From: Romanomermis culicivorax
Taxonomy: Eukaryota; Nematoda; Enoplea; Mermithida; Mermithidae
Assembly: GCA_963922205.1 (NCBI GenBank)
Contig: CAWUHX010000126.1
Span: 62,001-126,000 of the forward strand
DNA length: 64,000 bases
Reading direction: 5' to 3'
The notes under the pieces are model-generated. The model worked only from the letters and a program-made list of their open reading frames with translations. It made no database searches and was not told where the DNA came from. The position numbers and the translations under genes were made by a program. Positions 11,446 through 61,684 of the stretch are shown piece by piece (positions within the stretch are counted from its first letter, which is position 1; every line of letters begins with the position of its first letter).

Positions 11446-12429
11446 TCAATTTTGACAAGGACTTTGTGGGTTTGTGACCGGCCTGACATTGATCACAGTG
11501 ATTCTGTTTCGAGCCACCATACCCGTCGTTGTTGACACTGCAGGCAGATGGTGACATCGAAATAGCGATATGCAAAACTTTTTCGCCCAATTCAATTTTA
11601 ACATCGTGTACGCCGGTTCACATAACTTATCCAATACAAAAAAGATCGATGTATACTGCGATATTTGGTTGATTGTAAAAAATTCTGGCATCACATTGGT
11701 GCTAATTGATGACACATAGATAAACGTGCCACCAATTACATAACCTACGATACGGAAAGACAGAATTATCTTCATTAATGACGTCATATTCTTCAATTCA
11801 CGGAAGTGATTCCGATCCATTCTTTGATCTGTGATGGTATTGGTACGACGTTTAGCCGCATAATATCCACAAATGTACAGTGTTACGGAAACGATCAAAA
11901 GCAAGAATGTGAATGTCGCAATGTATGAAGTGATGTTACTCAATGCAAAATCTACAATCAAGCATGAAACCGTGCTATGAAAATTCGAGTTGATGTACCC
12001 GAAACCAGAAACGATCAGAACGAAAACTTGTTGCAATACCACAGCTATGAAAGCATGCTTTATGGTTATGTGTTGAAATTTCACAGGATGCACCAAAGCC
12101 GTGAATCTAACCACTGATACGACGAATATGAAACATGTGTAATTGCATTCACTAAAACCTAGCACGTCTGCCACCAGGTGGCACATCCACCAGGGTATGT
12201 AAGACAGGCTTTTGTCATTGGTGAAAACTACGTGCAGTACAGATTGAAATCCATAACCCAAAGCACCTACGGCCCCATTGAATGTGTAAGCTCCATAAAC
12301 AACGTAGAAATGTGTTTTTAGTCCTTTGTTGGACGAGATGGCTTTCAAAAGTAAGACATCTAGCAGAATGGCCGCAGTGGAAAGTAGAACGACTATTGAA
12401 TCCGTGATTATGTTTTCCATCTCGGACAT
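11446..12429 (-). CDS. Seven-transmembrane receptor A, rhodopsin-like, single exon
   Basis: A 327-residue intact frame from ATG at 12429. Seven hydrophobic segments fall near residues 8-31, 41-68, 83-113, 125-145, 166-190, 217-243 and 257-277, the usual class A layout. Cys83 at the start of TM3 and Cys156 in the second extracellular loop could form the conserved disulfide. The TM3 end reads V-V-R-F-T-A-L-V-H-P, a DRY-type site keeping Arg but lacking the acidic residue. TM7 has E-P-A-Y in place of N-P-x-x-Y, followed by a basic amphipathic stretch. These deviations suit divergent orphan or chemosensory receptors. The ligand is unknown. There are no introns. Paralogues B and C are easily alignable along the whole length, so all three are probably expressed genes. 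Confidence 0.88.
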   Translation of the reverse strand: MSEMENIITDSIVVLLSTAAILLDVLLLKAISSNKGLKTHFYVVYGAYTFNGAVGALGYGFQSVLHVVFTNDKSLSYIPWWMCHLVADVLGFSECNYTCFIFVVSVVRFTALVHPVKFQHITIKHAFIAVVLQQVFVLIVSGFGYINSNFHSTVSCLIVDFALSNITSYIATFTFLLLIVSVTLYICGYYAAKRRTNTITDQRMDRNHFRELKNMTSLMKIILSFRIVGYVIGGTFIYVSSISTNVMPEFFTINQISQYTSIFFVLDKLCEPAYTMLKLNWAKKFCISLFRCHHLPAVSTTTGMVARNRITVINVRPVTNPQSPCQN

Positions 12430-15258: not shown

Positions 15259-15946
15259 ATGATGATTAAGCGGGGTAGAAATTTTGGTGCATAGCCTATT
15301 TGGTCCCCATTTCGATCTGGGTGAGATTGCCAGATTTTTGCCAGATTTCTGACATTATGGCTCCAAAAACCTGCCTCAGCTGCGAGCGGAGAGCTTCGCC
15401 ATGCCACCACAAGTGGGGCTGTGGGCCTGAAACTGAGTTGATGGCTTATCTTTTGCTATTGGACCTAATCCGTCTAGTACTAGCTATGGAAGAAACTATA
15501 GGTACTGTGGTGCTACTCTGGAGGTACTACTGTAGAATAAGGACAACGCAGCCAGGTTAGGGGTGACCAAAATTAGTCCTGTTAAGTATGAACAATAGAC
15601 AGGGTCATCTCTAAGATGACCTAGAAGCTGGGACCCCAATTGTGAACCAAGAGATCCCTTTTGACCCGACCTCAGGGAGAGTGAGCCTTTATTAACTGTG
15701 GAAGACTTAGGGAAGAGAATCGGCTTAACAAGAGTGCTCCTAACTACCCCTAACAATAATGTACTCTGAAACTTACCTAGTACAGCTATGACCGGGAGTT
15801 TGGCAGGGAGAGCTGGCCACTTGGGGACGGCAACAATAGGGAATTTATTTTGGGTGGCTAGGAGCATAAACGAGGTCGGAGGGACGACTTTAATGGATAA
15901 CAATTGATGACGGAAGAGGTCCACTATAGCCTGTCAGAAAAATAAC
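15259..15946. other. Unassigned stretch with a 142-codon minus-strand ORF
   Basis: The ORF at 15496-15924 (minus) is the longest outside the identified genes in this part. Its product is Leu/Ser/Pro-rich with no recognisable motif. The DNA is moderately GC-rich, so a chance frame or a piece of an unrecognised repeat is likely. Confidence 0.2.
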
Positions 15947-16018
15947 GCTCGGTGAGGGGCTCGAACCCTCGACCTTCTGCATACACGGCAGACCTGCTAC
16001 CAACTGGGCTAACTGAGC
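15947..16018 (-). tRNA. tRNA-Thr(UGU)-like sequence, copy 1, degenerate
   Basis: On the minus strand 72 nt fold as a tRNA: a 7-bp acceptor with one mismatch (GCTCAGT/ACCGAGC), A box TAGCCCAGTTGG, a 5-bp anticodon stem TCTGC/GCAGA and a perfect 5-bp T stem GAGGG/CCCTC. The loop is CGTGTAT, so position 33 is G instead of T, and the D arm seems to have lost two bases. The anticodon position reads TGT. It is probably a pseudogene or the head of a tRNA-derived repeat, given the tandem copy 257 bp away. Confidence 0.5.
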
Positions 16019-16203: not shown

Positions 16204-16281
16204 GCTCGGTGAGGGGCTCGAACCCTCGACCTTCTGCATACAAGGCAGATGGGCTACCAACTTCACTAACAGTAACCGAGC
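16204..16281 (-). tRNA. tRNA-Thr(UGU)-like sequence, copy 2
   Basis: The acceptor stem GCTCGGT/ACCGAGC is perfect, the anticodon loop CTTGTAT is canonical at position 33 with anticodon TGT, and the T arm is perfect. The D arm is enlarged and irregular, giving 78 nt. Near-identical flanks (GTCAGAAAAATAA on one side, GGTTCGGAAATTG and GTAGTGGTGGTGGTGAGTG on the other) show that it is duplicated with its surroundings. Confidence 0.5.
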
Positions 16282-21322: not shown

Positions 21323-22667
21323 TTATTTATCGATGTAGAGAGATATCATATCACATACGTTGGGGTCATCTAAGGTTTTCTTAAAGATTCTTAGTTCAGA
21401 GTTTAGAATATTGAGAAAAGCTTTAAAACTTGGGACTTTTTCACTTCTTCTTGTTTTGTATACATAGAATTTTGCTAGCAGTAGTATTACGTATATTGTA
21501 GTTTGTTTTGTTACATTTCCTTCAAATTTTGTTCCTAATATGATATCGTAGTCTTTGAGTTGACCCCCCACTGTTTAACTTCTCAATCATTCTTTCTTTT
21601 ATTTCTATCCAGAAGAGATGAACTGATTTATATTCACATAATATATGTAAAATGTTCTCTTCCTCAGTTTTGCAGTAGTTGCACAACTCCGATTCTCCGA
21701 TTTTATATTTTTTTAACAGTGAGTTAGTGATCAGAATGTTATGTAAAATTCGGAATTGAAACTGTTTGTATTTGTTCCCAATTTTAGTGTTTTGTAATAC
21801 TTTCCACGCTGTATCAATGCATGATTCTTCCAAAAATGGAAATTTGTTTCTCCATGCCAGTTTCCCCTTTGGCACAGCTAACTTAGCATTTCTCATGTAT
21901 TTCTTTACATTTTTAACTTCATTAATGTCCAGTGTTTGTGGGAAGAATTCAAATTCTTCTTTTTTGATATTGTAATTTTTTACTAGTGTTTTCCATTGTT
22001 TCGGGATTGAATGTATTACTTTGACATAGTCAAACCAGTCAATTCTGCAGCCCTCTTCTTTTAATGTTTCATGGTGTTTTATCTTCCAGTCCGTGTCAAA
22101 CCATGCAAATAGATAATTAAAATCAGAATTTTGTAGTGTTAAGAAAAACAATGATTTCTTATCACTGATGATATATTTATTATTGTTAATTTGTTGAGAG
22201 ACTACTTGCATAGGGGTTATGATTTCATAAATATTATTTGTTGGGATGTTTTTCACTGTCTCTAAAACTTGTTCATAAAAATTTGATACTTTAAGGTTTA
22301 AAAATTTGACAGAAAAGTTTGAATGGATCAAATTTTTTAACCCGCCTATTTTATTTAGTTCATGGGTTCCTATGGCACTCCATTTTCCTTGTGAGTTCAG
22401 AAGTCGAGCTAGCCATTTTGCCTTAAACGAAGTTACCATTATGTTAATATCTGGCATTTTGATTCCCCCATTGAGGTAATCCTGGATCATAACATCAGCC
22501 TTGATTTTTGGTTTTGCATTGTTCCATATAAAATTCATTTGAATTGTTTTTATTGTTTTGATAGTTTCTGAGTCAATAGGTAGGTTGATCATACTGTAGT
22601 TTAGCTTAGAAATTATTAAATAATTCCAGATCATAACTTTCCCATAAAAGGTTAAACCTCTGTTCAT
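21323..22667 (-). pseudogene. L1-type ORF2, C-terminal part
   Basis: A 381-residue frame (22667-21522) followed by a further frame (21571-21323) continues the LINE ORF2 after the RT. It includes the thumb-like region and a cysteine cluster C-N-Y-C-x(8)-H-x(3)-C near residue 330, followed by F-W. This type of C-terminal Cys motif is standard in L1/Tx1 ORF2. Frame changes at 22665 and about 21550 break it. The plus-strand ORFs here are shadows. Confidence 0.75.
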
Positions 22668-23953
22668 CCATGTATCACATTCTTTTTTGCTTTTTTTATT
22701 TTTCCACCAAAATTCTTTTGATACATGATCTGCTTATCATATGAAAAATATATTCCCAATATATTTATTGTATTTCTAACTTGACAATTTCTTAATTTTT
22801 CTTTCCTGTTCTTGTTTTCCCCAAGTCCAAGAATCTGTGTTTTTTTCAGGTTTATTCTGAGTCCTGATGCACCCGAGAAGTTTTCTATGCATTTAAGAGC
22901 TTTTTCAAGATCAGCCTCATTTTCTATGAGAAGAACTGTGTCATGTGCATACATTGAGACCTTGTTTATCTGATTATACGTTTGCAGACCTATGTATTCT
23001 TTTGACTCTCTCAGGTTTATTGCCATACATTCTATGGCACAAATAAACAAATATGGTGATATGGGACAACCATGTCTCACTCCTCTTTGAAGTTCGAATC
23101 TTTTTGTGGAATAGCCCATGTTTGCGACAACTGCTTCTGCTTTATTGTATAGTGTTTGGATCCATGTGCAGAATTTATCTCCTATATTGAACGTTTTTAA
23201 AGCCGTGATCATGAAATTTCTGTCCAAAGAGTCGAACGCTTTTTCTATGTCTAAGGATACTAAGTAACCTGAACCATTTGTTGATTCATAGTGTTCTATT
23301 ATATCTAATAGATACCGTATGTTTTCACCTATATATTGATCTGGAACGAACCCTTTTTGATCTTCATTAATTATGTGCTTAATCAGTGATTTTAGACGAG
23401 TAGCAAGTGTTTTTGCTAGTATTTTATAGTCTACATTTATCAAGGATATGGGTCTCCAGTTTGCTAGATCCAAAGTATCTTTATCTGGTTTGGGGATCAG
23501 TGTTATGATACTTCTTCTATGGGAATCGGACATGATGCCCTTATCTAGATTGTAGTTTAGACAGTTTACTAGAGGTATTTGCACTATGCCCCAAAAACTT
23601 TTGTAAAATTCTACTGTAAGTCCGTCATCTCCTGGCGACTTTCCATTTTTCATTGTTCTTAAAGTATTCAAATATTCTGTCTCCAATATATCCTTTTCCA
23701 AGTTTTCTTTTTGTTTTTCCGAAATTTTTGGATGGTCCGAAATATTCTCATTAAGATACTTTTCTTGTTCAGGACTACTGTAAGTTGTTTTATTTTTGGC
23801 ATATAATTTTGCATAAAATTTATAAAGATTTTGGGATATTTCTTTTGGGTTTTCAATTATATTGCCATGATGGTTGCGTAGAGCATTTATGCTTTTCTTG
23901 TTATAGTTTCTTTTCTCCATATTCAGAAAATATTTTGTGGGTTTTTCACCCAT
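22664..23953 (-). pseudogene. L1-type ORF2, reverse transcriptase part, catalytic Asp lost
   Basis: The 429-residue frame contains the RT blocks S-P-G-D-D-G-L-T (about 106), N-W-R-P-I-S-L (about 165), S-L-D-I-E-K-A-F-D (about 233), R-G-V-R-H-G-C-P-I-S-P (about 290) and Y-A-H-D (335-338). The family consensus is Y-A-D-D; here the first Asp is His (CAT), which would abolish metal binding. The Asp in S-L-D-I is kept. The following ORF2 section continues in another frame. Confidence 0.85.
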
Positions 23954-23979
23954 TAGATTCCACCTGATTTTGGTTTTTT

Positions 23980-25080
23980 CTAAGGAGAAGATTGCCTTTT
24001 TTCCATTATCAAATTTAGTTCTATTCTCAATTGTTTGTACCTCGGGTCATATCTATCAACCTCTTTTTTGTCTATTTTTTCTTCTATATCTTGGAATTGT
24101 TTCCTGAGGTCGGATTCATGATTTCTACGTTCTTTTGCTATTTGTTTACAGTATATTATAGTTTCGGCTCTTATTCTATATTTTATGAACTCCCATGTCT
24201 TTGCTGCCTCCAAGCAGTGTCTTGCAGTTTCCTGTGTAGCTTCTTCTACAGTCTCTTTCAGTAATTTTTGGTAGGTTTCATCTTCAACCAGTGAGTTATT
24301 GAAATGCCAGAAACCTGGTCCTCTTTTTTTAAAATTTTGACCTGTCAGTTTAAAATATATTCCATTATGGTCTGTAGGTAAGCCACTTATCATGTCACAA
24401 TTGCTGATTTCATTTATTAATTCCTCCGATGCAAAAAAGTAATCTAGTCTACAGCCGAAAGTTGATTTTTGTTGATACCAGGTGTATCTTTTCTTTGATG
24501 GATTTTTACATCTAAAGGTGTCGACTAGGTCATAGCTTGAAATGTGATTCAGGAAGTTTTCTGTTGATCTGGTTTTACTGTTTAAGTTGCCACCTGTTTT
24601 ATCCAGTTTAGGGTTTAAGGTTAAATTGAAATCTCCTCCTATTATAGTGGGTAAATTATTCACATTGAATTTCCTCAGTTTTTCAAAGATTTCGTTCCAA
24701 AAAGTCAGCTGATCTTTTTCATTAACTGGTGCATAGACGTTCATGATAATTAATGATGAGTCATCAAGTTTCAACTCTAGTAGAATGTATCTGCCTTTTT
24801 TGTCGAGACAGCTTTTTGTAATAGTGTGTGAGAAAGTATTATTAAACAGAATCGCGACTCCCTTACTGTTTGTTTCTCCAAGCGAGAACAAAATTTTGTT
24901 TGAGCCACAGCCCCATTCTAATTTTAACCTATTTTCCATAGATTTAACTGTATGTGTCTCTTGGAGAAAAATTACGTCATAGTTTTTGCAGTGTGTAAAA
25001 ATAGTTTTCCGTTTTGTCTCCAAATTAATTGTTTTAACATTTAAAGAAAAAAAACTAAGATTATAAGACATAAAAAACAA
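23980..25080 (-). pseudogene. L1-type ORF2, endonuclease part
   Basis: This 366-residue frame starts at an ATG and carries the apurinic/apyrimidinic endonuclease signatures of non-LTR retrotransposons in order: an N-terminal S-L-N-V block, L-Q-E-T-H near residue 40, N-V-Y-A-P near 114, G-G-D-F-N near 147, R-L-D-Y-F near 210 and a T-D-H-N catalytic pair near 236. These residues nick target DNA for reverse transcription in this family. The frame ends 27 nt before the RT frame, in a different phase, so ORF2 is interrupted here by a frameshift. The domain itself is complete. Confidence 0.85.
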
Positions 25081-34985: not shown

Positions 34986-35468
34986 TCATAGGTGGCGCGA
35001 CAGCGTCAACCTATAATATACTTGGCCCGCAAATTTCATGTCCCCCTCCTTAGAGCCCAAACGGTAAGAGCTAGAACCTTCGGGTTTTTTGCATCATAGG
35101 GGAAAACTATGGGGTGCCTTTTGTCATTTCGTCTCTATCTGCAGGTGATGCTCGGTGGGGCCCCAAAAATAGGTAAAAAACGCACTTTTTAAGGCCCCCC
35201 AGTTCCACCATGCCCAGCAATCGGTGTGCCATATCCAACCTCCATACTTCGGCCTAAGCAATCTCAAATGCGAATTTTTTTTTTTTTGAAATATGGCCTC
35301 AATTCAATTATATGGTTGTCCAAAGTCCCGGAAAACGCCGAATTCCCCAATTTGGTTATTATAATACTTATGGGTTCAAAAAAATAATTTTTTGCAGCAT
35401 AATGCACTACTAATTTTTTTGCAGTTTCAAACCAACCTGTAGCCTTATTGGGATTTTTGGACTTCAAG

Positions 35469-36250
35469 GGTTTTCGACCATTGGGAATTTGATGGACGCG
35501 GTCACTTTACACGAAAAATTTTCCCGGGTGTAAACAAGCGTATTTCCGTGATTTTTCAGTAGAGGGAGGTTTTGACCGCGGGGAATTCAATAGACGTCCT
35601 CACTTTACACGAAAAAACTATCCACGGTGTAAACAAATGCACTGCCGTAATTTTCTTGCGGAGGGGGTTTTCGACCACGGGGAATTTGATGAATGCGATC
35701 ACTTTACACAAAAACTTATCCCAGTTGTAAACAAACGTATTTTCGTGATTTTCCGGTGGACGGGGTTTTCGATCACAGAGAATTTGATGAATGCGATCAT
35801 CTTACAAAAAAAACTATCGCGGGTGTAAACAAGCGTATTCTCGTGATTTTTTTATGGAAGGGGCTTTCGACAGCTGGAAATTCAATGGATGTGTTACTTT
35901 ACACAAAAAAATTATTCCGGTTTTAACCAAGCCTGTTTTCGTGAGTTTTTTGTGGGAGGGGTTTTCGACCACTGGGAATTTAATGAAAGTGATCACTTTA
36001 CACACTAATTCATATTGAGTGTAAACAAATGTATTTCTGCGATTTTTGAGGGAAGAAGTTTCTGACCATGGGGAATTCGATGGACGGAGTCAGTTTACAC
36101 GAAAAAAGTCATTTGTGTAAACAAAGGTATTTCTGTGATTCTTTGGGTTGAAGGATTCTAAACCATGAAGAATTCAATAGATATGATCACGTTTCAGTAT
36201 CTTTACAACGTTTTCTAAGTACTATGCAGTTTACACATCCTTTACTTTTG
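35469..36250 (+). repeat. Tandem array of about eight units of about 97 bp
   Basis: Units begin near 35469, 35569, 35665, 35763, 35861, 35959, 36057 and 36152. Each carries GGTTTTCGACCA-like, GGGAATT[TC][GA]ATG, TCACTTTACAC, GTGTAAACAA and a GTATTTCCGTGATTTT-like segment. They are diverged from each other. Two short open frames (35637-35926) follow the repeat and are not genes. Element 1 has one unit (10338-10450). Confidence 0.8.
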
Positions 36251-40310: not shown

Positions 40311-41291
40311 TCAATTTTCACAAGGAACTTGGGGGTTTGTGACCTGTTTGAGATTGATTGCAGCAACCCTGTTTCGAGTCACCATACCCATTGTTGTTGA
40401 CACTGCGGGCTGATGATGACGTCGAAATAGTGATTTGCAAAACTTTTTCGCCCAATTCAATTTTAACATTGTGTACGCTGGTTCGGACAATTTATCCAAA
40501 GTGAAGAAGATCGACATATACTGCGCCATTTGGTTGATCGTTATAAACTCTGGCATCCAATCGGCGCTAATTGATGACACATAGAGAAATGTGCCACCGA
40601 TCAAATAACCTACGATACGGAAGGATAGGATTATCTTCATTAATGAATTCATATTCTTCAATTCACGGAAGTGATTCCGACTGGTCACCAAGCTTTGATC
40701 TGTGATGATATTGATACGGCGTTTAGCCACAAAATATCCGCAAATGTATAGTGTTACCGAGATGATCAGAAGCAAGAATGTGAAACTCGTAATATATGTG
40801 CTGATGCTACTCAATGCGAAATCTTCAATCAAGCATGAAACGGTGCTGTAAAAGTTCGAGTTAATGTACCCGAAACCAGACACGGTCAGAACGAAAACTT
40901 GTTGCATTACCACAGCCACGAAGGCATGCTTTCTTGTTATACGCTGATATTTCACAGGATAAACCAATGCCACGAATCTTACCACTGACACAACAAATAT
41001 GAAACATGTGTAATTGTATTCAGTGAAACCTAGCACATCTGTCACCAAGTGGCACATCCACCAGGGCATGCAGGACAGGCTTTTGTCATTGGTAAAAACT
41101 GCATGTAGTATGGATTTCCATATGTAACCTGAAGCGCCTATGGCGCCGTTGAACGTGTAAGCTCCATAAACAACGTAGAAATGCGTTTTCAGTCTTTTGT
41201 TAGATATGATGGCTTTCAAAAGCAAGACATCCAGTAGAACGGCTGTAGTGGAAAGTAGACTGACTATCAAATCCGTGATTATGTTTTCCAT
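40311..41291 (-). CDS. Seven-transmembrane receptor B, rhodopsin-like, single exon
   Basis: A 326-residue intact frame, collinear with receptor A from its fourth residue on. The ATG used by A is ATT here, so the next in-frame ATG (41291-41289) is taken as start; three residues are lost and no membrane segment is affected. The seven membrane segments, the TM3 Cys and extracellular-loop Cys, and the V-V-R-F-V-A-L-V-Y-P and E-P-A-Y-T-M-L-K motifs are preserved. Most differences from A are conservative, and length changes are only two inserted residues in the third intracellular loop (L-V-T-S near residue 198). The conservation of frame despite many nucleotide changes suggests selection. The ligand is unknown. 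Confidence 0.88.
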   Translation of the reverse strand: MENIITDLIVSLLSTTAVLLDVLLLKAIISNKRLKTHFYVVYGAYTFNGAIGASGYIWKSILHAVFTNDKSLSCMPWWMCHLVTDVLGFTEYNYTCFIFVVSVVRFVALVYPVKYQRITRKHAFVAVVMQQVFVLTVSGFGYINSNFYSTVSCLIEDFALSSISTYITSFTFLLLIISVTLYICGYFVAKRRINIITDQSLVTSRNHFRELKNMNSLMKIILSFRIVGYLIGGTFLYVSSISADWMPEFITINQMAQYMSIFFTLDKLSEPAYTMLKLNWAKKFCKSLFRRHHQPAVSTTMGMVTRNRVAAINLKQVTNPQVPCEN

Positions 41292-42589: not shown

Positions 42590-43665
42590 GGCCTCCTTTG
42601 ACCTGCATCACAGCAGATAGTCACTTTGGCATGGACAAAACCAATTTCTCACAGTACTCAGCAGTGATAGATGACCAAATTTCTCGAAGTTTTTTTCTCA
42701 AATCCTCGGATGATTTTGCATGGAAATTGGTTTTCAGGATTTCGTGTTTCATTTTATGCCATAAGTTTCCAATAGGATTCAAATCCGGAGACTGAGGAGG
42801 CCAATCTAGTATACGAATGCTCTTGTTCGTAAAGAATTTCATGGAATACCCAGCCTTGTGCTTAGGGTCATTATCTTGCCGAAAAATCCAGTTTCTGCAA
42901 GCTGTAATTGGTAAAGCAGCATCTGTCAATAACTCAAGATGATTTTCCAACAAAGAAACATAAGAACATGCTGTGAATTTCGGGTCAGCAGGTTCATTTG
43001 GAATAAATACCAGTACACCAACACCGCAAATCCCAAAAGATCCCCAAACCAAAACTCCTCTGCTGCTGCCATGTTTGACAGTCCCAACCATGCATTTAAG
43101 TAAATATCTGTCACCAGCTCTTCGTGGAACAACAACTCGAGATTTTTCACTCGAACGATCGAACTTTGATTCATCAGTAAACAGTACGTTTTCCCAGTTG
43201 GATTGAGTCCAGTCTCCATATTTTTTAGCGAATTCAAGCCGTTTTTTCCTATTTTTTTCGCTAATGAACGGCTTTTTGGCAGCAATCTGAGTACAAAATC
43301 CAAGCTTTTTGAGCCGTCTACTGATCGTTGATCTATGAACCAAAGTTCCTCCGCCAACAGAAAGTTCATCTCACAATGTGGGCAGAGATTTTCGACGATT
43401 TTCCTCAACTAAACGAACCAAGCGTCTGTCGTCTCTGCTGGTCATTTTCTAGGGTTTTCCGCTTCGCTTAATGTCGGTAAATGTGCCAGTAGAGTTAAAC
43501 TTTTCCAAAGCATTACGAACTGCCTGTCTGGACACAGATAATCGACATGAAATTTCTTTTTTCGAAAGTTTTCCAATCGTAAATAGCAATACAATCATTG
43601 AACGCTTAGTTGGGGACAAGCTCTTTCTTTGACCCACTAATTTGCCATGTGCATAAAGAAACAAC
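42590..43665 (-). pseudogene. Tc1-type transposase relic
   Basis: Minus strand, essentially one reading frame from 43664 to about 42594 with two in-frame stops (near 43448 and 43376). N-terminal paired HTH: K-L-S-K-K-E-I-S-C-R-L-S-V-S-R near residues 32-46, then a second HTH with S-T-I-S-R-R-L-K-K. Catalytic part: F-T-D-E-S near 43175, R-Q-D-N-D-P-K-H near 42890 and S-P-D-L-N-P-I-G-N-L-W near 42775. The third acidic residue of the DDE triad, Glu in P-I-E-N, is Gly here (GGA), so it is inactive even apart from the stops. Full length is about 345 residues, typical for Tc1. Confidence 0.85.
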
Positions 43666-47149: not shown

Positions 47150-48139
47150 TCAATTTTGATGAGGAAGGTGGTGGTTTATGACTCGCCCCACATTGATCAC
47201 AGTGATACCATTTCGGCATGCCACACCCATTGCTGTTGCCACTTCAGACTGACGGCGACATCGAAATAGCGATTTGCAGAACTGTTTCGCCCAATTCAAT
47301 TTTAGCATTGTATAGGCTGGTTCGCACAACTTGTCCAGGGCAAAAAAAATTGATGTACATTGTGCCATACGGTCGAGTGTCAAATAATCTGGCATCAATT
47401 TGGCACAAATTGTTGAAGCATAGATAAACGTGCCGCCAATTACATAACCTATTATGCGGAATGATAGAATTATTTTCATTAATGAACTCATATTCTCCAA
47501 TTGGCGGAAGTGATCACGATTTGAAGCCATGTTTTGATCTGCTACAGTATTGATGTGACGTTTAGCCACAAAATATCCATAAACATATAGTATCACAGAA
47601 ATGACCAATAGCAAAAATGTGAAACTCGTAATGTATGGACTGATGCTACTTAACGCAAAATCGACAATCAAGCACGAAACAATGTGATAAAAATTCGAGT
47701 TGTTGTATCCAAAAGCCGACACAGTCAGAACAAAAAGTTGTTGCGTTAGCACACCCACGAAAGCGTGGCCAGTGGTTATGCACTGAAATTTCATCGGATA
47801 AACCAAACCTATGAATCTTACAACTGATACAGCGAATATGAAGCATGTGTAATTGTATTCAGTAAACATTAGGGCATCTGTCAGTAAGTGGCACATCCAC
47901 CAGGGCATGTAAGACAGGCTTTTGTCATTGGTAAAAACTGCATGCAGTATGGATTTAAATGCATAAAGCGAAGCACCTACGGCACCGTTGAAGGTGTAAG
48001 CTCCATAAACGAGGTAGAAATGCGTTTTTAGTCTTTTGTTAGATACGATAGCTTTCAGAAGTAATATATCCAGTAGAACGGCTGCAGTGGAAAATAGAAT
48101 GACGAGTGAATCTGTGGTTATGTTTTCCGCTTCTGACAT
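47150..48139 (-). CDS. Seven-transmembrane receptor C, rhodopsin-like, single exon
   Basis: A 329-residue frame from ATG at 48139 (M-S-E-A-E-N), which lines up with the start of receptor A. The frame is open further upstream to 48187, but only with a GTG, so the ATG is preferred. It is collinear with A and B: seven membrane segments, paired Cys in M-C-H-L and V-S-C-L-I, TM3 end V-V-R-F-I-G-L-V-Y-P, TM7 L-C-E-P-A-Y-T-M-L-K, then a basic tail. It is the most diverged of the three, notably in TM4 and the second extracellular loop (N-N-S-N-F-Y-H). Frame integrity with extensive synonymous and conservative change suggests a working gene. Ligand unknown. Confidence 0.87.
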   Translation of the reverse strand: MSEAENITTDSLVILFSTAAVLLDILLLKAIVSNKRLKTHFYLVYGAYTFNGAVGASLYAFKSILHAVFTNDKSLSYMPWWMCHLLTDALMFTEYNYTCFIFAVSVVRFIGLVYPMKFQCITTGHAFVGVLTQQLFVLTVSAFGYNNSNFYHIVSCLIVDFALSSISPYITSFTFLLLVISVILYVYGYFVAKRHINTVADQNMASNRDHFRQLENMSSLMKIILSFRIIGYVIGGTFIYASTICAKLMPDYLTLDRMAQCTSIFFALDKLCEPAYTMLKLNWAKQFCKSLFRCRRQSEVATAMGVACRNGITVINVGRVINHHLPHQN

Positions 48140-48191
48140 TCTACAGAAAACTTTTATCACTAAAGTGAGGAATTGGTTGTCTTGCACAACA

Positions 48192-52410: not shown

Positions 52411-52482
52411 CCGCTCGAGGAGGGGTTCAAACCCTCGACCTTGATATTAAGAGACACGCTTTTCCCACTCAGCCACCCCAAC
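52411..52482 (-). tRNA. tRNA-Leu/Ser-like sequence, degenerate
   Basis: Minus strand: A box TGGCTGAGTGG and B box GGTTTGAACCC with a good T stem (GAGGG/CCCTC), as in Leu and Ser tRNAs. CTTAATA could be an anticodon loop with TAA, but the anticodon stem and acceptor do not pair. Probably a pseudogene or SINE head. Confidence 0.35.
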
Positions 52483-52951: not shown

Positions 52952-53014
52952 GATATGAAATAATAGTGGATCAGCTAGCATGAGGTGGATGAAATAATAG
53001 TGGATCAGCTAGCA
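52952..53014 (+). repeat. Direct duplication of about 31 bp touching the LTR
   Basis: ATGAAATAATAGTGGATCAG plus CTAGCATGAG occurs twice in a row, the second copy ending in the TGAG target site of the LTR element. Confidence 0.8.
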
Positions 53015-53018
53015 TGAG

Positions 53019-53905
53019 TGTAACGTACCTGCTAAAGCAGTACTGTAAATATGTAGCATACTGTATGTGATAGACATTTATTGGATATTATTTCATTTTC
53101 ACATTTTATCATCTCAAGGGTGTCTGGGATTCACACCCAAACATTCCTATAAAATTACGTGAAGTACTTTATTTTGATCCATTCACACCCTGGTAGCCCA
53201 ATTAAGATGCCCCAATTAATTTGCACAAACGGCAGTTGGTCCCCTAGAACCTACACTAAACTACACATTCCACAGCTACTGTAATCCCCCATAAAAACCG
53301 TAAACAACACCTGCACACAGTAAAATACGTAGAAGCCCTGCCAGACAGTAGTCTCAAGTGTAACGGTAGCCGCGGCCCCACAAAACATGTGTATACAGAG
53401 AAACCGATACAGGAAGCATGCACAGAAGCACAAAGGTGTGGCCAAGCCCACCGTAGAAAGCAAGCAAACCACAGGAAGCATACAGTACCAGGAAAGCACT
53501 AGAAAGGCATAACTAAAAAAAGCATAAAAAGCGTAGCAGGAAGCGACGATTGGCGGAAGAAGATGGACAGAAGCTTGACCTCCCTGGACACCCAGGGAGT
53601 GGCCAAAATGTCGTATAAAAGAAGAAGCAAAGGGTGACTTTGGTAGTTACTATTTTGTGAATTTTGATCCGCGGCTGTTCGTTTTTATTTGCAAGCAACC
53701 GTCTTCGAAAGCAATTAAACGGTATCGTCTATTTTATTTGCAAGCAACGGCACCCTCCCGTTTTGTTATTCGACATTCAAGCGACGGTCGATCATTTGTG
53801 TATTTTCGTATTATCGTACCGCCCATGCCCCCTCCGGTTATTCCATCCCCGCCATATCAACCGTTGGTTGAAAGTAAAGTACCTCACACAAATCTTGTTG
53901 TTACA
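53019..53905 (+). repeat. 5' LTR
   Basis: Begins TGTAAC, ends GTTACA. TATAAAA at 53614-53620 is the likely promoter. The last about 250 bp are open in the gag frame. Confidence 0.92.
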
Positions 53906-56155
53906 TATTTTGGTGACTGTACCATACCATTAAACACTGGAACTCCCTGCCCCCAATTAGGTGTACTCTTATCCGGGCATTTAGAAGCATTAGATAATAC
54001 AGTAGTAATCATTTCCTACAGTAAGATAGTATTCGTAGAAAGCAAACTGGAAATCCCCTCCAACGAAACATTAAGCGATACATTTAAACAAATACAGCGT
54101 GAAGCAAAAATTGAAGCATTTAAGCAGAAAACCCAGTGTAAACCAAGAATGACCCGCCAAACGCAGGATCATTTAGGAGAAATCGTTAGAGAACAGATAA
54201 ACGATTTATTTTCAGAACATTTTCGTACCCTACGCACACAATTGAATCAGAATACAGTAAACCCTACCCTAATAGACGATCTAAGAACAGCAAACATTCG
54301 TAATAACATGGCAAATAATTTCTACGCGAAACCTACAGTATTCACGGGCTGCGTGACCCAACATTTTGGTGAATGGAACAAAAGATTAGAACAATTCATG
54401 GCACTCCAAGGCATGAAAGATACAGACGTACAGTTAAAGTTGGCATGTTTAGAAATTCATTTAGGAGGAGCCGCATTAGCAAAATTCAAAAGTTTAGCCA
54501 ATTCCGAAAACCCTCCCCACACATACGAGCAGTATAGAGTTGCATTACAGGCATTTTTCCCAAACAATAGAGATAATGAGCTACATCAACAGATCTTACG
54601 CGAAAGAAAACAAAAGCGTTCAGAAACAGTAACTGAATTCTTATTTGATCTAGAACATCTCGCAACCCTCGCCTACCCTAATTTTAACACAGAGGCACGA
54701 GAAATGATCATAAAACCCCTCTTTGTAGAAGGCATGCAAAACGAAATCAGGGAAACGATTAAATATAGACGGTTCACAACTCTAAAAGAAATGTCAGACG
54801 AAGCAGCTTACATTGAACAGCAAATTCTTAGAAATGAGTTAAAATCTAACGCCCTTCCCTTCATACCCCCAAAACCCGAACCCATCTTTTCCCTAACCAA
54901 CAATACAGATCAAGAGGACCTTTTGCATCAGTTAGAACAACAAGTAAAAGATTTACAGTTGCAGATCAAACAAACACCTCAACCCCCACAACAAAGTAGC
55001 TACAACAATTTCAGTAACAATACTTTCAGTAGGAATAATGCTTACAGGAACAATACCACCCCTAGGCAACCCACATGCTTCCAGTGTGGACAAATTGGAC
55101 ACACAGCTCATAATTGTGAATCAGTGGGCACCTGGAAATCATGTGAAATTTGTTTTCTTAATAATCACAGTACACGTGATTGTAAAAGCCGATGCATCCA
55201 CTGCTCCCAAACAGAACATAGATCTGATAGTTGCCTTTCAAAACCCTACTCAAATTTTCAATGTTTTATATGCAAGCAGAGAGGTCAAACAAGCAGGTAC
55301 TGTCCAAATCAGCAGAGTCGTAATATTCAAATTTGCATTGAGTACAGGCAACCCCAACCCCTGATGGACATTGATGACCCTGCATTTTACTCAAAATTAC
55401 CCCCCATAACTAATGGCCCTCAGACTACTTTAGGAATTATCATGCCCAACACCCACCGCCATAGTGACAAATACGTCCTGGACCTGGATGTACTCGATTG
55501 GTGGGCCATGTCACCACCCCCCACGCCTGAAGCCGCAAAAATCGAAAAATCGCCCCCCACCATCCCTGTAGGCTACAAAATCCCCCGCAAGCAAGACAAG
55601 ACACCGCCCATTGCCCCCGAAACCCCATCGAAAGCAGGCCGCAACTTACTGTCCCTTCTACATAGCCTGACCCCTGAACCCTACCAATTCCGCACCCGTC
55701 AAACACTGCTACCAACCCCCACAAGTAAGCAAGTCCAAACCCCATCCCATGACTCAACTTCTAAAATTTTACAGACCGTTCAGATTGCAAACTGGCCAAC
55801 CTCTCAGCCCAAAACCGAACAACACCAAAAGCGGCCACGCCAAACCGGCCAGAACGAAAATATACAGTACCCTGTCACCTCCACTAAAACATTATATTGG
55901 CCGTTGTATTGTATATTTTTATGCATAATAATCCCCACATGGTGTAGTGCCCAATTTCAGATGTGTGGAACTTCATTGAGCAGTCACTCAGTCAGCATAC
56001 CAAAACTTGTATCATGCATGCCCCCTTCCACAATAGATAAACCCGTACAGACATTTGGAAAAATCTATATCCCCTCCACTAAACCCCACATAACAGACGC
56101 ATACAAATGCAGTGTTCGCAAACGGAAAATTTGTACTAATAAAGGATTTTTTTGA
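53825..56155 (+). CDS. gag: Gag polyprotein, running on into the envelope signal peptide
   Basis: The frame is open from 53657 (a GTG, not a eukaryotic start). The first in-frame ATGs are 53825, inside the LTR, and 54149. The capsid-like region (about 54330-54820) has the W-N-K-R-L-E-Q-F and L-x-F-D-L-E-x-L-A blocks of Ty3-type Gag. It is followed by a coiled-coil/Q-rich stretch and a nucleocapsid with four Cys-type knuckles at about 55066-55310: three are C-x2-C-x4-H-x4-C, and in the fourth His is Gln. After a Pro-rich section the same frame encodes a hydrophobic signal-peptide-like segment (about 55890-55945) and about 60 more residues with several Cys, then TGA at 56153-56155. That last part belongs to the envelope rather than Gag. 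Packaging of the element RNA is the family role. Confidence 0.85.
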   Translation: MPPPVIPSPPYQPLVESKVPHTNLVVTYFGDCTIPLNTGTPCPQLGVLLSGHLEALDNTVVIISYSKIVFVESKLEIPSNETLSDTFKQIQREAKIEAFKQKTQCKPRMTRQTQDHLGEIVREQINDLFSEHFRTLRTQLNQNTVNPTLIDDLRTANIRNNMANNFYAKPTVFTGCVTQHFGEWNKRLEQFMALQGMKDTDVQLKLACLEIHLGGAALAKFKSLANSENPPHTYEQYRVALQAFFPNNRDNELHQQILRERKQKRSETVTEFLFDLEHLATLAYPNFNTEAREMIIKPLFVEGMQNEIRETIKYRRFTTLKEMSDEAAYIEQQILRNELKSNALPFIPPKPEPIFSLTNNTDQEDLLHQLEQQVKDLQLQIKQTPQPPQQSSYNNFSNNTFSRNNAYRNNTTPRQPTCFQCGQIGHTAHNCESVGTWKSCEICFLNNHSTRDCKSRCIHCSQTEHRSDSCLSKPYSNFQCFICKQRGQTSRYCPNQQSRNIQICIEYRQPQPLMDIDDPAFYSKLPPITNGPQTTLGIIMPNTHRHSDKYVLDLDVLDWWAMSPPPTPEAAKIEKSPPTIPVGYKIPRKQDKTPPIAPETPSKAGRNLLSLLHSLTPEPYQFRTRQTLLPTPTSKQVQTPSHDSTSKILQTVQIANWPTSQPKTEQHQKRPRQTGQNENIQYPVTSTKTLYWPLYCIFLCIIIPTWCSAQFQMCGTSLSSHSVSIPKLVSCMPPSTIDKPVQTFGKIYIPSTKPHITDAYKCSVRKRKICTNKGFF
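53911..53928 (+). promoter_or_regulatory. Primer-binding site candidate
   Basis: TGGTGACTGTACC begins 5 nt after the LTR, with TGG as the complement of a tRNA CCA end. The matching tRNA was not identified. Confidence 0.55.
55767..55774 (+). promoter_or_regulatory. Possible splice acceptor for envelope mRNA
   Basis: TTTTACAG lies about 115 nt before the signal-peptide-like segment, in a position where a subgenomic env transcript could join. No donor was confirmed. Confidence 0.3.
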
Positions 56156-57679
56156 TCAAAAGGTATTGTCTTCGACCAAACCTAAATGCAAAATCTAACC
56201 CCACATGTTTGTAAGGCAATCGTTATAGACAACGAACACAATGGTCAAAAATTATACGAAACCCAACCCGGATTTTGGTCAACAAATAACTCCCTAAGCG
56301 TAGAATACACATGGTGTTGCACAGACCACTGTACCTCGGTCACTAACGTCATTATAGAAATAGGACAAATAGCATCTTGGAATAGAAAATCTATGACAGG
56401 TACATTAGGCGACCTGGGGGCATGCAAACCGACATCAGGTCATTGTGTAACAACTGAGGGATCCATTATCTGGAATGAAACAGCATTTGAAAACTTATGC
56501 CCCTTCGAATACAAAAATACACATCCCATAAAACTCACGCTAACCCAAATGATAATAGAAGAGGTACAAGGAGCATTCTCGGTTAAAAACACACCCTTTT
56601 CGAACCCCAATTGCTCAGAAATCCAATACAGCATTCTAACTGAACAAGGCATTATTGTACAATTAGACAAAAGCACACCACATCGTAATGCATTTTTAAC
56701 CCCAAAAACCAACGAAACCCATACTACACTCTACGATTTTGATGATTTTGAACCCATTAATGCGAAACTAAACTATCTAGCAGACAAAATCCAGGAATTC
56801 GAAATTCAAAATTTCAAAAACGTATGGAATGAATTATGCAGACAGGCACAGCGTCACCTTGATCTGGTATGGCAAATTTTACGGCTTGATGCAACCCTTG
56901 GAGCGCGTGCATTTCTACAGCGAACCGACATCATAGCAGAATTCACAGGAGAAGCCCTCACAGTCTGGCCCTGCAAGCATGTAAATGCATCCAAAATCTT
57001 TTACAACCATAAAATCAACCAAACATGCTACAAACTTTTGCCCATTCTCGTAGGAACCGAACTCATGTTTTCGAATCCAGGAGGCAACCATTTGACCCCT
57101 TTTTCACAAACCGTTGACTGCCATCACATGCATGTAGCCCTTTACAAACAGAATAATACATGGGTCAGTGAAACAGGATCCCCGCATGTCACAAATTTAC
57201 CTTTAGAAATCGTCTGGAACCAAAATTTCTCCCTTTTTCATTTTAATACACCGGCCATTTTTCATGATCAACTTGCAACTATTTCAACCAACTTACTCTT
57301 TTTGAAACAATACATTTACAAAACTCACACACTCGAAAACATTGTGAAAAAACTCATCAATTACACCACCCAAATGTCTCTCAATCCCGATACAGTTTAC
57401 AACATGATCTCAGGCACTGGCCAAGCACTTGGAAATACCCTCTCTGGCGCCAGTCAAGGTATAGAACATGTAATAACCAGTACCACCCAAAGTCTCAGGG
57501 ACGGATTACACAATTTGCTCAAAGGACCCCTACAAATCATTATCAATCTAGCCATTATTACTGTAGTTATTGCAGGCATCTTTTATTCTTTTCTCATTCT
57601 TCGAAAATATTTCCCTTCTTCCAAGCATCATGCCACACATGAACATGCATATGAAATACCATCAAACAACAGAAGTTAA
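55885..57679 (+). pseudogene. env: Envelope-like membrane glycoprotein, broken by two stops
   Basis: The signal-peptide-like segment at 55890-55945 is in the gag frame. The main ORF (56186-57679, 497 residues) is in the same frame, separated only by TGA (56153) and TAA (56183). The ectodomain is Cys-rich (for example C-C-x3-C) with many N-x-S/T sequons. Near the C-terminus a Gly/Ser-rich amphipathic stretch (about residues 405-445) precedes one transmembrane helix (about 450-472) and a short cytoplasmic tail. That is the build of a class of viral surface glycoproteins. I cannot assign the source family; a rhabdo/chuvirus-like origin is only a guess. No furin site was evident. In this family the role would be cell entry; this copy cannot make the full product. 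Confidence 0.7.
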
Positions 57680-58513
57680 CATGAGACCATTCCCCCATCA
57701 TTCCGCCATGCTCTCTTAGAATTAGCTAATCATCGTGGGGCACAAACGCAGCAGAAATATGTCCTTGTCGATATTAATACCCCCCAAACTCCTGCAATCG
57801 AACTCATTAATCAAATTCATCAATCTGCATCAAACAAGCCTTCCCAAAATGTACCTGAGAAGCATACCCCTCATATTCCAATCACACTTAATGGCAAATT
57901 AATCACAAAAGGTATGATCGACACTGGTGCAGTCTACTCACTGATTGATTCAGGGATCGCCCAACTCTTACAATTAGACATGAAACTGCTGCTAGTTGAA
58001 GCAAAAGCAGCAAATAATCTCCCAATTCACTTTGTAGGGACCACTTTTGTCAGAGTGACAGCCCAAATGATACAAGAAACAATAATGGTCCATGTCCAAA
58101 AAGATTGCACAGCAGACATCCTTTTAGGCAAAAACTTTCTAAGTCGATTTTCGGAATACACTATCAACAATCAAAAATCTCAGGTCAAATTTGGCAACGT
58201 CATACTACCCTATGATGGCCTAGAATATAGCCCCCTTTCGACCTGTGGTGGAACCTATCTAGATGAGAAATTAGAATTACCACCCCATACAGTAACCGAA
58301 TTCACTGTACCCTTGCCCAAATCATACCTACAAGTTAAACAGCTCGAGTTTACTCCGAAACCCAAACAGAACCCTAAAGTTCATTGCGCAGCTTGTGTCT
58401 CTAAAAACCAAAACAGTCGCATACGCAAGAAACAGCTCAAATTCTTTACCTCGGAACATGCATTGGTACAGTATCCTGTTACATCCCAAAACAAAAGGCT
58501 CCCACTAACATAA
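57680..58513 (+). CDS. Retropepsin-like protease region
   Basis: Downstream of the env TAA the same frame stays open to 58513. It holds the aspartic protease signatures D-T-G-A (codons near 57918) and I-L-L-G (near 58119), about 65 residues apart, as in retroviral and Ty3 proteases. The first about 75 codons are a linker without a motif. In the family this enzyme cuts the polyproteins. The frame is -1-offset from the RT frame that follows, so expression would need frameshifting or is broken. Confidence 0.75.
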   Translation, partial: HETIPPSFRHALLELANHRGAQTQQKYVLVDINTPQTPAIELINQIHQSASNKPSQNVPEKHTPHIPITLNGKLITKGMIDTGAVYSLIDSGIAQLLQLDMKLLLVEAKAANNLPIHFVGTTFVRVTAQMIQETIMVHVQKDCTADILLGKNFLSRFSEYTINNQKSQVKFGNVILPYDGLEYSPLSTCGGTYLDEKLELPPHTVTEFTVPLPKSYLQVKQLEFTPKPKQNPKVHCAACVSKNQNSRIRKKQLKFFTSEHALVQYPVTSQNKRLPLT

Positions 58514-59600
58514 CCCCCTCCATGCAAAACCAGCCCAACCGTTTTGATACATTCACATGGTTAAAGGAAAATGCTAATTTAACCTCCAGTAACCTCACAG
58601 AAACGGAAAAAAGGCAACTCCTACGCGCCCTATCGAAGTATCCTACATTATACGCTAAATCCAAAATGGAAGTAGGTAGAACCACCCTGGTTTCACACAC
58701 AATTGACACCAATGGCTCCCAACCTGTACGCAGACATGTTTATTGGACTTCCCCAAAAGAAAAACAAATCATTCAAGCAGAAGTTGAGCAACTCGCAGCA
58801 GCAGGTGTCATAAGCCAAATCAATTCTCGATGGTGTACCAACACAGTCTTAGTCCCCAAAAAAGATGGAGGCCATCATTTATGCATTGATTTTAGAGGCC
58901 TCAATAAAGTAACCAAAAAAGACACCTACCCCTTGCCCCATATAGACGAAATTCTAGACACCCTCTGTGGAATGAAATAATTTATGTCCCTTGACCAATC
59001 CAATGCTTATTATTCCATCCCCATAGCACAAGCAGACAGAGAAAAAACGGCCTTTAATTGCTCAGCCAGGCAGTATCAATTCAATTACCTCCCCTTCGGT
59101 CTCACCAAGGCTCCAGCCACATTCCAAAGGTTAATGGATGTTATTCTTTCAGGTTTGCAATGGAACAAATGCCTTGTATATCTCCACGATGTTTTGGTAT
59201 TCGCAGACTCCCATGCCCAAATGCTGGAACATTTAGACACTATTCTTGCCTGATTCTCACAAGCAGGCCTTAAGCTAAACATACAAAAATGCAAATTCTG
59301 CCAGCTCCATGTCCAATACTTAGGCCACGTCATTTCTCAACAAGGCATTTCACCAGATCCCCATAAGGTACAGACCATCTATGACATACCCACACCCAAA
59401 AGCTCAAAAGAAGTTAAGTCATTCCTTGGCCTACCCTCCTATTATCGCAGATTCATCCCAAATTGCTCTCAAGTTTCTAGCCCGCTCACATCGCTACTCA
59501 AAAAGAATTCAGAATTTTCCTGGGGCTCTGAACAGCAAAACGCATTAACCAAGCTAAAAGAATTACTCCTTCATGCCCCAATACTGCAGCATCCCAATTT
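58514..59600 (+). pseudogene. Reverse transcriptase, two stops and YLHD active site
   Basis: Frame starting at ATG 58522 with the Ty3-type RT series: L-V-P-K-K-D-G near 58853, I-D-F-R-G-L-N-K near 58886, then a TAA at 58978-58980 just before M-S-L-D-Q-S-N-A-Y. L-P-F-G-L-T-K-A-P-A-T-F-Q follows near 59093, and the active site is Y-L-H-D near 59180 where Y-L-D-D is expected. A TGA at 59251-59253 interrupts before A-G-L-K-L-N. F-L-G-L-x-S-Y-Y-R-R-F-I follows at about 59420. The frame is otherwise continuous through both stops, so this is point-mutation decay, not rearrangement. Confidence 0.9.
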
Positions 59601-59990
59601 CACAAAACCGTTCATTCTGCAAACTGACGCCTCAAAACTTGGAATCGGGGCAATTCTCAGCCAGCTAGACAGTAAAGGTCAGGATTGCCCCATTGCTTTT
59701 GGCAGCTGCACATTAAAACCCGCAGAACGCAACTACCCAATAACTGAGTTGGAAACCCTTGCAGTAGTCGAATTTGTCAAGTATTTCCGCCCCTACCTTT
59801 TCCAGCAACATGTTGTTGTACACACTGACCACACAGCAGTTCAGGCAGTCTTACAAAAGGAAAACCCGTCCCCTCGCATTGCCCGTTGGGGATTAGCCCT
59901 CTCCGGTATTCAATTAGACATTCGCCCTAAGAAAGGCACTGCTAACCGCAATGCAGATGCAGTTTCTCGATTCCCCTCACAGACAGCAAA
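59600..59990 (+). CDS. RNase H region
   Basis: Same frame as RT. Key residues visible: Asp in Q-T-D-A-S (near 59623), Glu in T-E-L-E-T-L-A (near 59747) and Asp in H-T-D-H-T-A-V (near 59825), the order found in Ty3 RNase H. It is followed by a chromatin-free linker ending N-A-D-A-V-S-R-F. The domain looks complete but depends on the broken RT frame upstream for translation. Confidence 0.8.
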
Positions 59991-59999
59991 GCAATCCTT

Positions 60000-60762
60000 T
60001 GATATTGAGCAACTAGAAATCCGCCCTGAAATATCAACCATAAATTCTGTTCTTGAGACCGAAGCAACTGAACAAGAAGAGCAACACAAAAATTTCGCCG
60101 AACTCCAATGCACTGATCCAACTGTCAAAAGTATTTTAGCAAAAATCGCCCAAAAACACCCCCTCACTCTGATCAAATTCGCAGTGCATCAAACCATCCT
60201 CTTCCATATAGTCGACAAACAGGCAAAACAATACATTCCCAAGTCACAAGTCCAGCATCTCATTGCCTCGCATCATGACAGCAAATTCACAGGCTATTTT
60301 GCTGCCAGGAAAACTTTACACTTGCTCAGACAAAAATATTTTTGGCCCCAAATGAGCTGTGGTAGAAAGTATGTAGAGGCATTCCCGACCCCTGACACCA
60401 CTGCAGCCACTATCCCCAAATTATTCGTAACCAAAATTGTTTGCCATCATGGGTCCCCGAAAATCATCCATTGTGATCATGGCTCCGATTTTGTATCCGA
60501 TCTCTTCTCACGGATAACTAGTTTATGCAATACTCAGAAAATTCATACCACCCCATACCATCCCTTTGCCAGTGGGGAAGTTGAGCATTGCAACCAGACC
60601 CTAGCCACCCGTATCCGCATGTACATCAATTCAAATCACACTGATTGGGATACTTATCTACCGTATGCCGTTTTTTCGATCAACATTCATAAAAATAATA
60701 GCACTTTGTACCCCCCATTTGAATTACTTCACGGTAGGCAAGCTCACCCTCGAAAGCCTTGA
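60000..60762 (+). pseudogene. Integrase with internal deletion
   Basis: In frame with RNase H up to TGA at 60760-60762. The zinc-binding region is only half present: A-S-H-H-D-S and A-A-R-K-T-L are seen, but the C-x2-C pair and the first catalytic Asp block are absent, since W-P-Q-M...R-K-Y-V joins directly to E-A-F-P near 60375. That implies loss of about 80-100 codons. The second Asp (D-H-G-S-D-F near 60478) and the Glu (S-G-E-V-E-H near 60582) remain. The C-terminus is short, ending just before the PPT. Confidence 0.85.
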
Positions 60763-60779
60763 ATGAGGACGTTCAACTC

Positions 60780-60793
60780 CGGAAGGAGGGAAA
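60780..60793 (+). promoter_or_regulatory. Polypurine tract
   Basis: GGAAGGAGGGAAA directly precedes the 3' LTR, the standard plus-strand primer position. Confidence 0.85.
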
Positions 60794-61680
60794 TGTAACG
60801 TACCTGCTAAAGCAGTACTGTAAATATGTAGCATACTGTATGTGATATACATTTATTAGATATTATTTCATTTTCACATTTTATCGTCTCAAGGGTGTCT
60901 GGGATTCACACCCAAACATTCCTATAAAATTATGTGAAGTACTTTATCTTGATCCGTTCACACCCCGGTAGCCCAATTAAGATGCCCTAATTAATTTGCA
61001 CAAACGGCAGCTGGTCCCCTAGAACCTACACTAAACTACACATTCCACAGCTACCGTAATCCCCCGTAAAAATCGTAAACAACACCTGCACACAGTAAAA
61101 TAAGTAGAAGCCCCGCCAGACAGTAGTCTCAAGTGTAATGGTAGCGGCGGCCTCACAAAACATGTGTATACAGAGAAACTGATACAGGAAGCATGCACAG
61201 AAGCACAAAGGTGTATCCAAGCCCACCGTAGAAAGCAAGCAAAGCACAGGAAGCTTACAGTACCAGGAAAGCACTAGAAAGGCGTAACTAAAAAAAGCAT
61301 AAAAAGCGTAGCAGGAAGCGACAATTGGTGGAAGAAGATGGACAGAAGCTCGACCTCCCGCGACGCCCAGGGAGTGGCCAAAACGTCATATAAAAGAAGA
61401 AGCAAAGGGAGATTTTGGTAGTTACTATTTTGTGAATTTTGATCCGCGGCCGTTCGTTTTTATTTGCAAGCAACCGTCTTCGAAAGCAATTAAACCGTAT
61501 CGTCTATTTTATTTGCAAGCAACCGTGCCCTCCCGTTTTGTTATTCGATGTTCAAGTGACCGTCGATCATTCGTGTATTTTCATAGTATTGTACCACCCG
61601 CGCCCTGTCCCGTTATTCCGTCCCCGCCGTATCGACCATTGGTTGAAAGTAAAGTACCTCACACAAATCTGGTCGTTACA
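60794..61680 (+). repeat. 3' LTR
   Basis: 887 bp, same ends as the 5' LTR. Differences are mostly transitions and are denser in the last about 150 bp. The gag-frame stretch stays open here too. Confidence 0.92.
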
Positions 61681-61684
61681 TGAG

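Follow-up and report, generated by a model that had tools for sequence, protein, structure and literature searches.

A predicted chuvirus-type glycoprotein in frame between gag and pol of a Ty3/gypsy-type retroelement from Romanomermis culicivorax

Structure of the Retroelement in the Window

The stretch analyzed here (the window, 64,000 nucleotides of contig CAWUHX010000126.1 of the nematode Romanomermis culicivorax) contains, at positions 53019 to 61680, a long terminal repeat (LTR) retroelement in which an envelope glycoprotein sequence (env) is located between gag and pol, that is, before the protease (PR), reverse transcriptase (RT), RNase H (RH) and integrase (IN). The features of this copy, numbered within the window, were the following:

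53015..53018: target site duplication TGAG, left (flank comparison)
53019..53905, + strand: 5' LTR of 887 nt, TGTAAC..GTTACA (LTR pair alignment)
53911..53928, + strand: candidate primer binding site (PBS), TGGTGAC..., 5 nt past the LTR (TGGTGAC in 10/10 copies)
54149..55362, + strand: gag, with a capsid-like domain and consecutive zinc knuckles (Pfam Retrotrans_gag, copy alignment)
55362..55885, + strand: gag-env spacer, a weakly constrained continuation of the gag frame (copy alignment; ratio of nonsynonymous to synonymous changes, pN/pS)
55886..55951, + strand: predicted internal Env signal sequence, CIFLCIIIPTxCSA, with cleavage expected before QFQMCG (hydropathy)
55952..57679, + strand: envelope glycoprotein of the PF24664 type (Pfam, hydropathy)
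about 57533-57601, + strand: predicted Env transmembrane stretch (hydropathy)
57680..58513, + strand: aspartic protease (DTG), in the env frame (Pfam)
58522..59253, + strand: RT (Pfam RVT_1)
59254..59990, + strand: RT thumb and RNase H region (Pfam; domain order confirmed in an intact pol piece)
60200..60762, + strand: integrase (Pfam)
60781..60793, + strand: polypurine tract (PPT), GGAAGGAGGGAAA (sequence)
60794..61680, + strand: 3' LTR of 887 nt (LTR pair alignment)
61681..61684: target site duplication TGAG, right (flank comparison)

The paired LTRs, the PBS-like sequence, the PPT and the TGAG on both sides were thus all in place, as a preliminary description of this locus had stated. The placing of the glycoprotein before the protease and the other enzymes, also claimed there, agreed with the order of the Pfam matches on the + strand, which were Retrotrans_gag (E 4.1e-5), Monjiviricetes_fusion (4.6e-19) and gag-asp_proteas (1.1e-5) in the 5' half, followed by RVT_1 (1.3e-17), RT_RNaseH (2.6e-12), Integrase_H2C2 (8.4e-10) and rve (2.5e-4) in the 3' half. 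Likewise, nothing was present between the integrase and the PPT, since only about 20 nt separate the last pol stop (60760) from the latter. The likely start of gag is the ATG at 54149, although the gag frame of this copy is already open from the LTR onward, and the Env signal and N-terminus share this open frame.

The window copy is an old, broken relic. Its LTRs differ at 58/887 positions without gaps (Kimura two-parameter distance, K2P, 0.069). Its env is interrupted by stops at 56153, 56183 and 57677, which are all but confined to this copy: the stop at 56183 is shared with one of nine other copies, and that at 57677 is missing in all nine, whose env continues into the protease. Two stops (58978 and 59251) interrupt the RT, 19 nt of the protease that are present in the nine aligned copies are missing after 58425, and pol is 593 nt shorter than in those copies (186 nt at 60363, in the integrase, and 407 nt at 60751, at the pol end). 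The env gene previously described at 55885-57679 was right in coordinates and order, but it is broken by stops here and does not form a gene of its own in intact copies. A QYPVTS repeat (about 55870, and about 58470 at the protease end) was considered as a pair of protease cleavage sites and rejected, as it was present in the window copy only.

On the left side, a 30-nt direct repeat (52955-53018) abuts the LTR exactly, and the TGAG duplication corresponds to the final four bases of this repeat. Matches resembling tRNAs were located at 52412-52482, some 530 nt from the left end of the insertion, and at 15946-16018 and 16209-16270 (- strand).

Constancy of the Gene Order in Other Copies

The window belongs to an R. 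culicivorax assembly of 359,112,060 bases in 595 contigs. At least 42 matches to the LTR were obtained, with about 40 of 3,183 candidates scored, and ten other LTR pairs were taken for examination. The order gag, env N-terminus, env and protease was found in nine of them, and the tenth (C56) did not deviate from it, although its gag is interrupted by about 5 kb of inserted sequence; RT-integrase comes afterward. Target duplications were present in all ten LTR pairs tested (nine others and the window, C56 being left out), nine of them of 4 bp and one, in C102, of 5 bp. The nine other copies are located at separate sites, and their LTR pairs have K2P values of 0.015-0.042. Since the same order was present in copies at separate, duplication-flanked sites, it must have been transposed as a unit many times. 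Furthermore, five of 17 LTR places without a partner were probed, and in three of them (C1, C49 and C37) gag and env were as far apart as expected; the probes at C75 and C90 detected neither gag nor env (no internal sequence).

These results indicated that the gag-env-pol order is the rule of the family. A chance rearrangement or an assembly error in the window copy, for which nothing speaks beyond the decay of this copy, can be dismissed: the order recurred in 10/10 other LTR-paired copies, with their own target duplications in the 9/9 tested. The preliminary description was therefore correct in holding that the order is no assembly of unrelated pieces. The constancy across copies that it proposed to check was found in the ten LTR-paired copies and at three of the five further LTR loci, and no full-length copy with env absent or after pol appeared among those ten. 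Pol places in C38 and C89 have frames of 1,850-1,871 codons, about the size of a gag-pol without env, and may lack it.

Two copies in C102 (534488 and 551336) are evenly spaced, both with LTRs having the same left flank, and three pol places in C81 (870997, 879389 and 895189) are regularly spaced on one contig. This spacing suggests arrays produced by duplication or LTR recombination.

A Single gag-env-pol Reading Frame

An alignment of ten copies from the leader to the protease contained no stop or frameshift common to all of them. Most lesions were in one copy; the widest sharing, 4/10 copies in each case, was seen for a CGA-to-TGA-like stop at 57785 and for the deletion of 1 nt at 55799. 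The changes shared among copies fell at codon positions 1/2/3 in the numbers 10/8/50 in gag, 17/17/33 in the spacer, 31/6/83 in env and 17/6/52 in the protease (p against uniform codon positions 1.8e-11, 0.022, 1.8e-17 and 9.5e-11, respectively), and no such bias was detected in the leader (p 0.11).

The genome was also searched with an env piece (86 places scored of 3,886 candidates) and with a natural pol piece (37 places scored of 12,855 candidates). A stop-free env was observed at 85/86 env places, and at 50/86 the open frame reached 2,400 codons or more; frames of this length were also present at 26/37 pol places. Twenty-three of the scored pol places adjoin a listed env place, and in 21 of these the open-frame length was identical. 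Moreover, of 29 stretches other than that of the window, each reaching from gag past env and the protease to within RT, 23 had no break in the frame along the whole 4,488 nt. Therefore, the intact element is almost certainly a single frame of some 2,400 codons, Gag-Env-Pro-RT-RH-IN, as the open frames, their lengths and the codon-position bias together indicated. In intact copies, env is an in-frame stretch of gag-env-pol and no separate gene.

The Envelope Glycoprotein and Its Signal

The profile search and the structure prediction suggested in the preliminary description for tracing the origin of the glycoprotein had different outcomes. The window env matched PF24664 with 68.3 bits (cut-off 27), over profile positions 295-469 of 653 only, and an intact env reading matched it with 52.3 bits; judged by this profile, the glycoprotein is of the chuvirus (Monjiviricetes) type. 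The AlphaFold model of Env, built from 5 sequences, was unusable for recognizing a class III fold (mean pLDDT 35.3). A weak match to Glycoprotein_B was also present (Pfam, E 0.0098), and Env had no sequence match in the Protein Data Bank (PDB). The intact reading, taken from one copy, comprises 604 codons including the signal, with eight N-glycosylation motifs and, by hydropathy, one N-terminal hydrophobic signal and one C-terminal transmembrane stretch; no RxxR site was found in these 604 codons. A length-limited search with the env protein gave one protein among 5,581 candidates, and the best match was a protein of R. culicivorax, a mermithid nematode, with 51% identity.

The core of the signal was invariant in the 23 copies with an open frame, yet it included a methionine (start codon) in just 12 of them, the next in-frame ATG upstream being about 130 codons off. 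Env therefore appears to be independent of a start of its own. Separate translation of Env from an internal start or a subgenomic promoter, with the fused frame incidental, would find a start in the methionine just within the signal in those 12 copies; we regard it as improbable, given that this methionine is missing in the other 11 and that the spacer frame stays open and mildly constrained.

Relatives and Phylogeny

The pol piece matched 1,047 proteins in a search at E 0.001, and among the best 120 of them PF24664 was present in two, the metagenome proteins P0003 (1,750 aa) and P0005 (1,424 aa). Each contains env, protease and RT in one frame, with identities of 40% (env) and 49% (pol) for P0003 and of 42% and 45% for P0005. 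P0003 begins within env; P0005 has the N-terminus of the mature Env as its first residues, with neither gag nor signal before them, a start that would fit an upstream exon. A third relative, P0002 (1,903 aa), is a one-frame gag-pro-RT-IN protein (pol 49% and gag 33% identical) with no env match; its spacer includes a hydrophobic stretch of 19 residues (hydropathy 1.63). None of 4,703 candidate proteins matched gag at E 0.001, P0002 being above the length limit of that search. No relatives were present in the viral contigs or the prokaryote genome contigs searched.

In the trees, the window family formed a clade of seven rows with P0002, P0003, P0005, P0004, P0007 and P0010 (support 100/100) on a long stem, and its pairing with P0002 and P0004 was weakly supported (80/77). 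The outside rows were proteins of Rotaria, Daphnia, Paragonimus, Ephydatia and Haematococcus, with no other named reference elements. The simplest account of this distribution would be that env was captured once and subsequently lost in P0002, but it may also reflect two separate captures.

Constraint on env and Recent Activity

Constraint was estimated as uncorrected pN/pS over 163 of the 253 pairs among the 23 open copies, excluding pairs under 93% identity. The values were 0.102 for gag, 0.336 for the spacer, 0.064 for env, 0.050 for the protease and 0.067 for RT, so that the constraint on env equals that on RT. This low ratio indicated that env was retained by selection during replication of these lineages, and the glycoprotein is very probably functional for the element. 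That env should be a functionless, neutral passenger spread by the element, as its broken state in the window copy and several others might suggest, is highly improbable in view of a pN/pS as low as that of RT and of homologues 40-51% identical in P0001, P0003 and P0005, with pol 45-49% identical in the latter two.

The LTRs of two open-frame copies differed at 1/898 positions (C370, duplication CATC) and 0/901 positions (C155), which showed that open-frame copies were inserted recently. Compared with each other, the 23 open copies had a median ungapped identity of 96.3% (range 78.9-98.5%). Two copies thus have near-identical LTRs inside, yet the copies stand several percent apart, as with many lineages live at once.

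Expression of the Fused Frame

Translation from the gag ATG at 54149 can yield only Gag-Env-Pol, unless the RNA is spliced. We propose that translation of the unspliced genomic RNA would begin at the gag start and produce a single polyprotein, threaded through the membrane of the endoplasmic reticulum. Gag would remain cytosolic, and the internal signal sequence would start translocation; signal peptidase would cleave before QFQMCG, leaving the Env ectodomain lumenal, and the single transmembrane stretch would bring the chain back to the cytosol, where the protease and the other enzymes come next. Gag (via the signal) and Pol (via the Env tail) would thus be made tied to the membrane where enveloped particles bud, and the protease would later release both. 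The topology predicted by hydropathy is consistent with this proposal, with one signal, one transmembrane stretch and both Gag and Pol cytosolic, and P0003 and P0005 likewise run env into pro-RT in one frame. A similar working is known from the structural polyproteins of alphaviruses and flaviviruses, with an internal signal between the cytosolic capsid and the glycoprotein; these viruses are unrelated, and in the window family the replication enzymes follow the glycoprotein instead.

A Ty3/gypsy-type element with an in-frame chuvirus-type glycoprotein, read as a membrane-spanning Gag-Env-Pol polyprotein, is the interpretation that we favor, with a probability of roughly 0.6; that the polyprotein is the main expression route seems slightly better than an even chance. 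Several observations weigh against it. It implies equimolar Gag, Env and Pol, which would be unusual for a retroelement. The frames were shorter at 36 of the 86 scored env places, the deletion at 55799 throws env out of the gag frame in 4/10 older copies, and some stops are common to two to four copies. Given where P0003 and P0005 start, the junction with gag is visible in one genome only. Finally, a candidate intron is present:

55725..57719, + strand: candidate intron (GTAAGC ... CTYTYTTAG), whose removal would delete env in frame (conserved ends)

Env might accordingly be a retained intron or the product of a spliced message, splicing giving Gag-Pro-Pol and unspliced RNAs, or RNAs spliced from a donor in the leader, giving Env. 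The GTAAGC at 55725 and the CTYTYTTAG at 57719 are kept in 29/29 and 10/10 copies, the length of the candidate intron is a multiple of three in 27/29, and a donor-like GTAAG is present in the leader of 9/10. Splicing would also resolve the problem of stoichiometry, and in the parts of PMC12992720 available the Env of insect errantiviruses is reported to come from spliced RNA. Nevertheless, the pyrimidine tract of the acceptor is weak and most copies failed the 9-of-12 screen, and the site may be due to chance; divisibility by three has a one-in-three chance, the coding sequence around the candidate sites has other reasons to be conserved, and an env intron alone would not require an open frame through env. 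We consider splicing possible but doubtful. The wider form of the polyprotein reading, in which a single membrane-threading Gag-Env-Pol arose once in a metazoan gypsy lineage, lasted in at least three families and was lost in P0002, is put forward tentatively, at somewhat under even odds.

Comparison With Known Systems

From its 4-bp duplication and TGGTGAC PBS, the element may be CsRn1-like. It has the LTRs, PBS, PPT and target duplications of Ty3/gypsy elements (Metaviridae) and, in the intact pol piece, the order PR-RT-RH-IN, with Ty3 Gag-Pol as the best PDB match (E 7.8e-113). The Metaviridae of the International Committee on Taxonomy of Viruses (ICTV; PMC7879559) share the LTR, PBS, PPT, zinc-knuckle gag and PR-RT-RH-IN, and a one-frame gag-pol is permitted in them. 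Their Env, where present, is encoded downstream of the integrase (PMC7879559), whereas here env lies before the protease; we take the usual position as a trait that does not exclude membership.

Captured viral glycoproteins have been described in other retroelements, as far as the accessible portions of the sources tell. Anakin, a mosquito BEL/Pao element (PMC7642597), is an LTR retroelement that spread with a captured Chuviridae-type glycoprotein; its pol is Pao-type and that of the window family Ty3-type, which sets the latter apart from BEL/Pao, and those passages do not mention an in-frame gag-env-pol. Errantiviruses and insect gypsy endogenous retroviruses (PMC12992720) are also LTR-bearing Ty3/gypsy elements that took up a viral fusion protein, but their env is a third open reading frame (ORF), F-type (baculovirus-like) and expressed from spliced RNA, instead of a PF24664 Env before the protease. 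TelKA of bdelloid rotifers (PMC5408684) likewise carries a fusion glycoprotein of a non-segmented negative-strand virus, which is of the class I paramyxovirus F type and encoded by ORF3 after pol, unlike in the window family. Jingchuvirales insertions in arthropods and nematodes (PMC10084718) have the same glycoprotein type and are often near Gypsy fragments; that 2023 survey reports, in the sections available, no clear capture of the glycoprotein by Gypsy, whereas here it is part of the element. In the literature searched, we found no metazoan retroelement with env between gag and pol, although Chary and Hayashi 2025 (eLife 108449), which is cited in PMC13172572, may describe such elements.

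Env-bearing retrotransposons and retroviruses have been described with env last and on its own message (PMC7879559; and, in the part available, PMC12992720). A constrained and recently inserted env inside the gag-pol frame means that this arrangement is no requirement, and the window family adds to Anakin a second, Ty3-type kind of retroelement with a captured chuvirus-type glycoprotein. It raises the testable question of whether all proteins are made on one membrane-spanning chain or env is spliced in or out. If true, the former would be a distinct expression strategy for reverse-transcribing elements, with capsid and enzymes tied to the budding membrane. Annotation pipelines that seek env only after the integrase would miss such elements.

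Other Features in the Window

Three ORFs, similar to one another, each in a single exon and about 330 aa long, resemble rhodopsin-type receptors and were located at 11446-12429, 40311-41291 and 47150-48187 (- strand), with a weak 7tm_1 match (E 0.0005) in one of the three only. Pieces of a non-LTR retrotransposon at 21522-25080 (- strand) included an endonuclease-like ORF, an RT (RVT_1, E 3e-37) and zf-RVT, and a Tc1/mariner-type transposase with HTH_Tnp_Tc3_2 and DDE_3 was found at 42621-43343 (- strand). Additionally, a tandem array with periods of 98 and 196 nt was present at 35468-36145.

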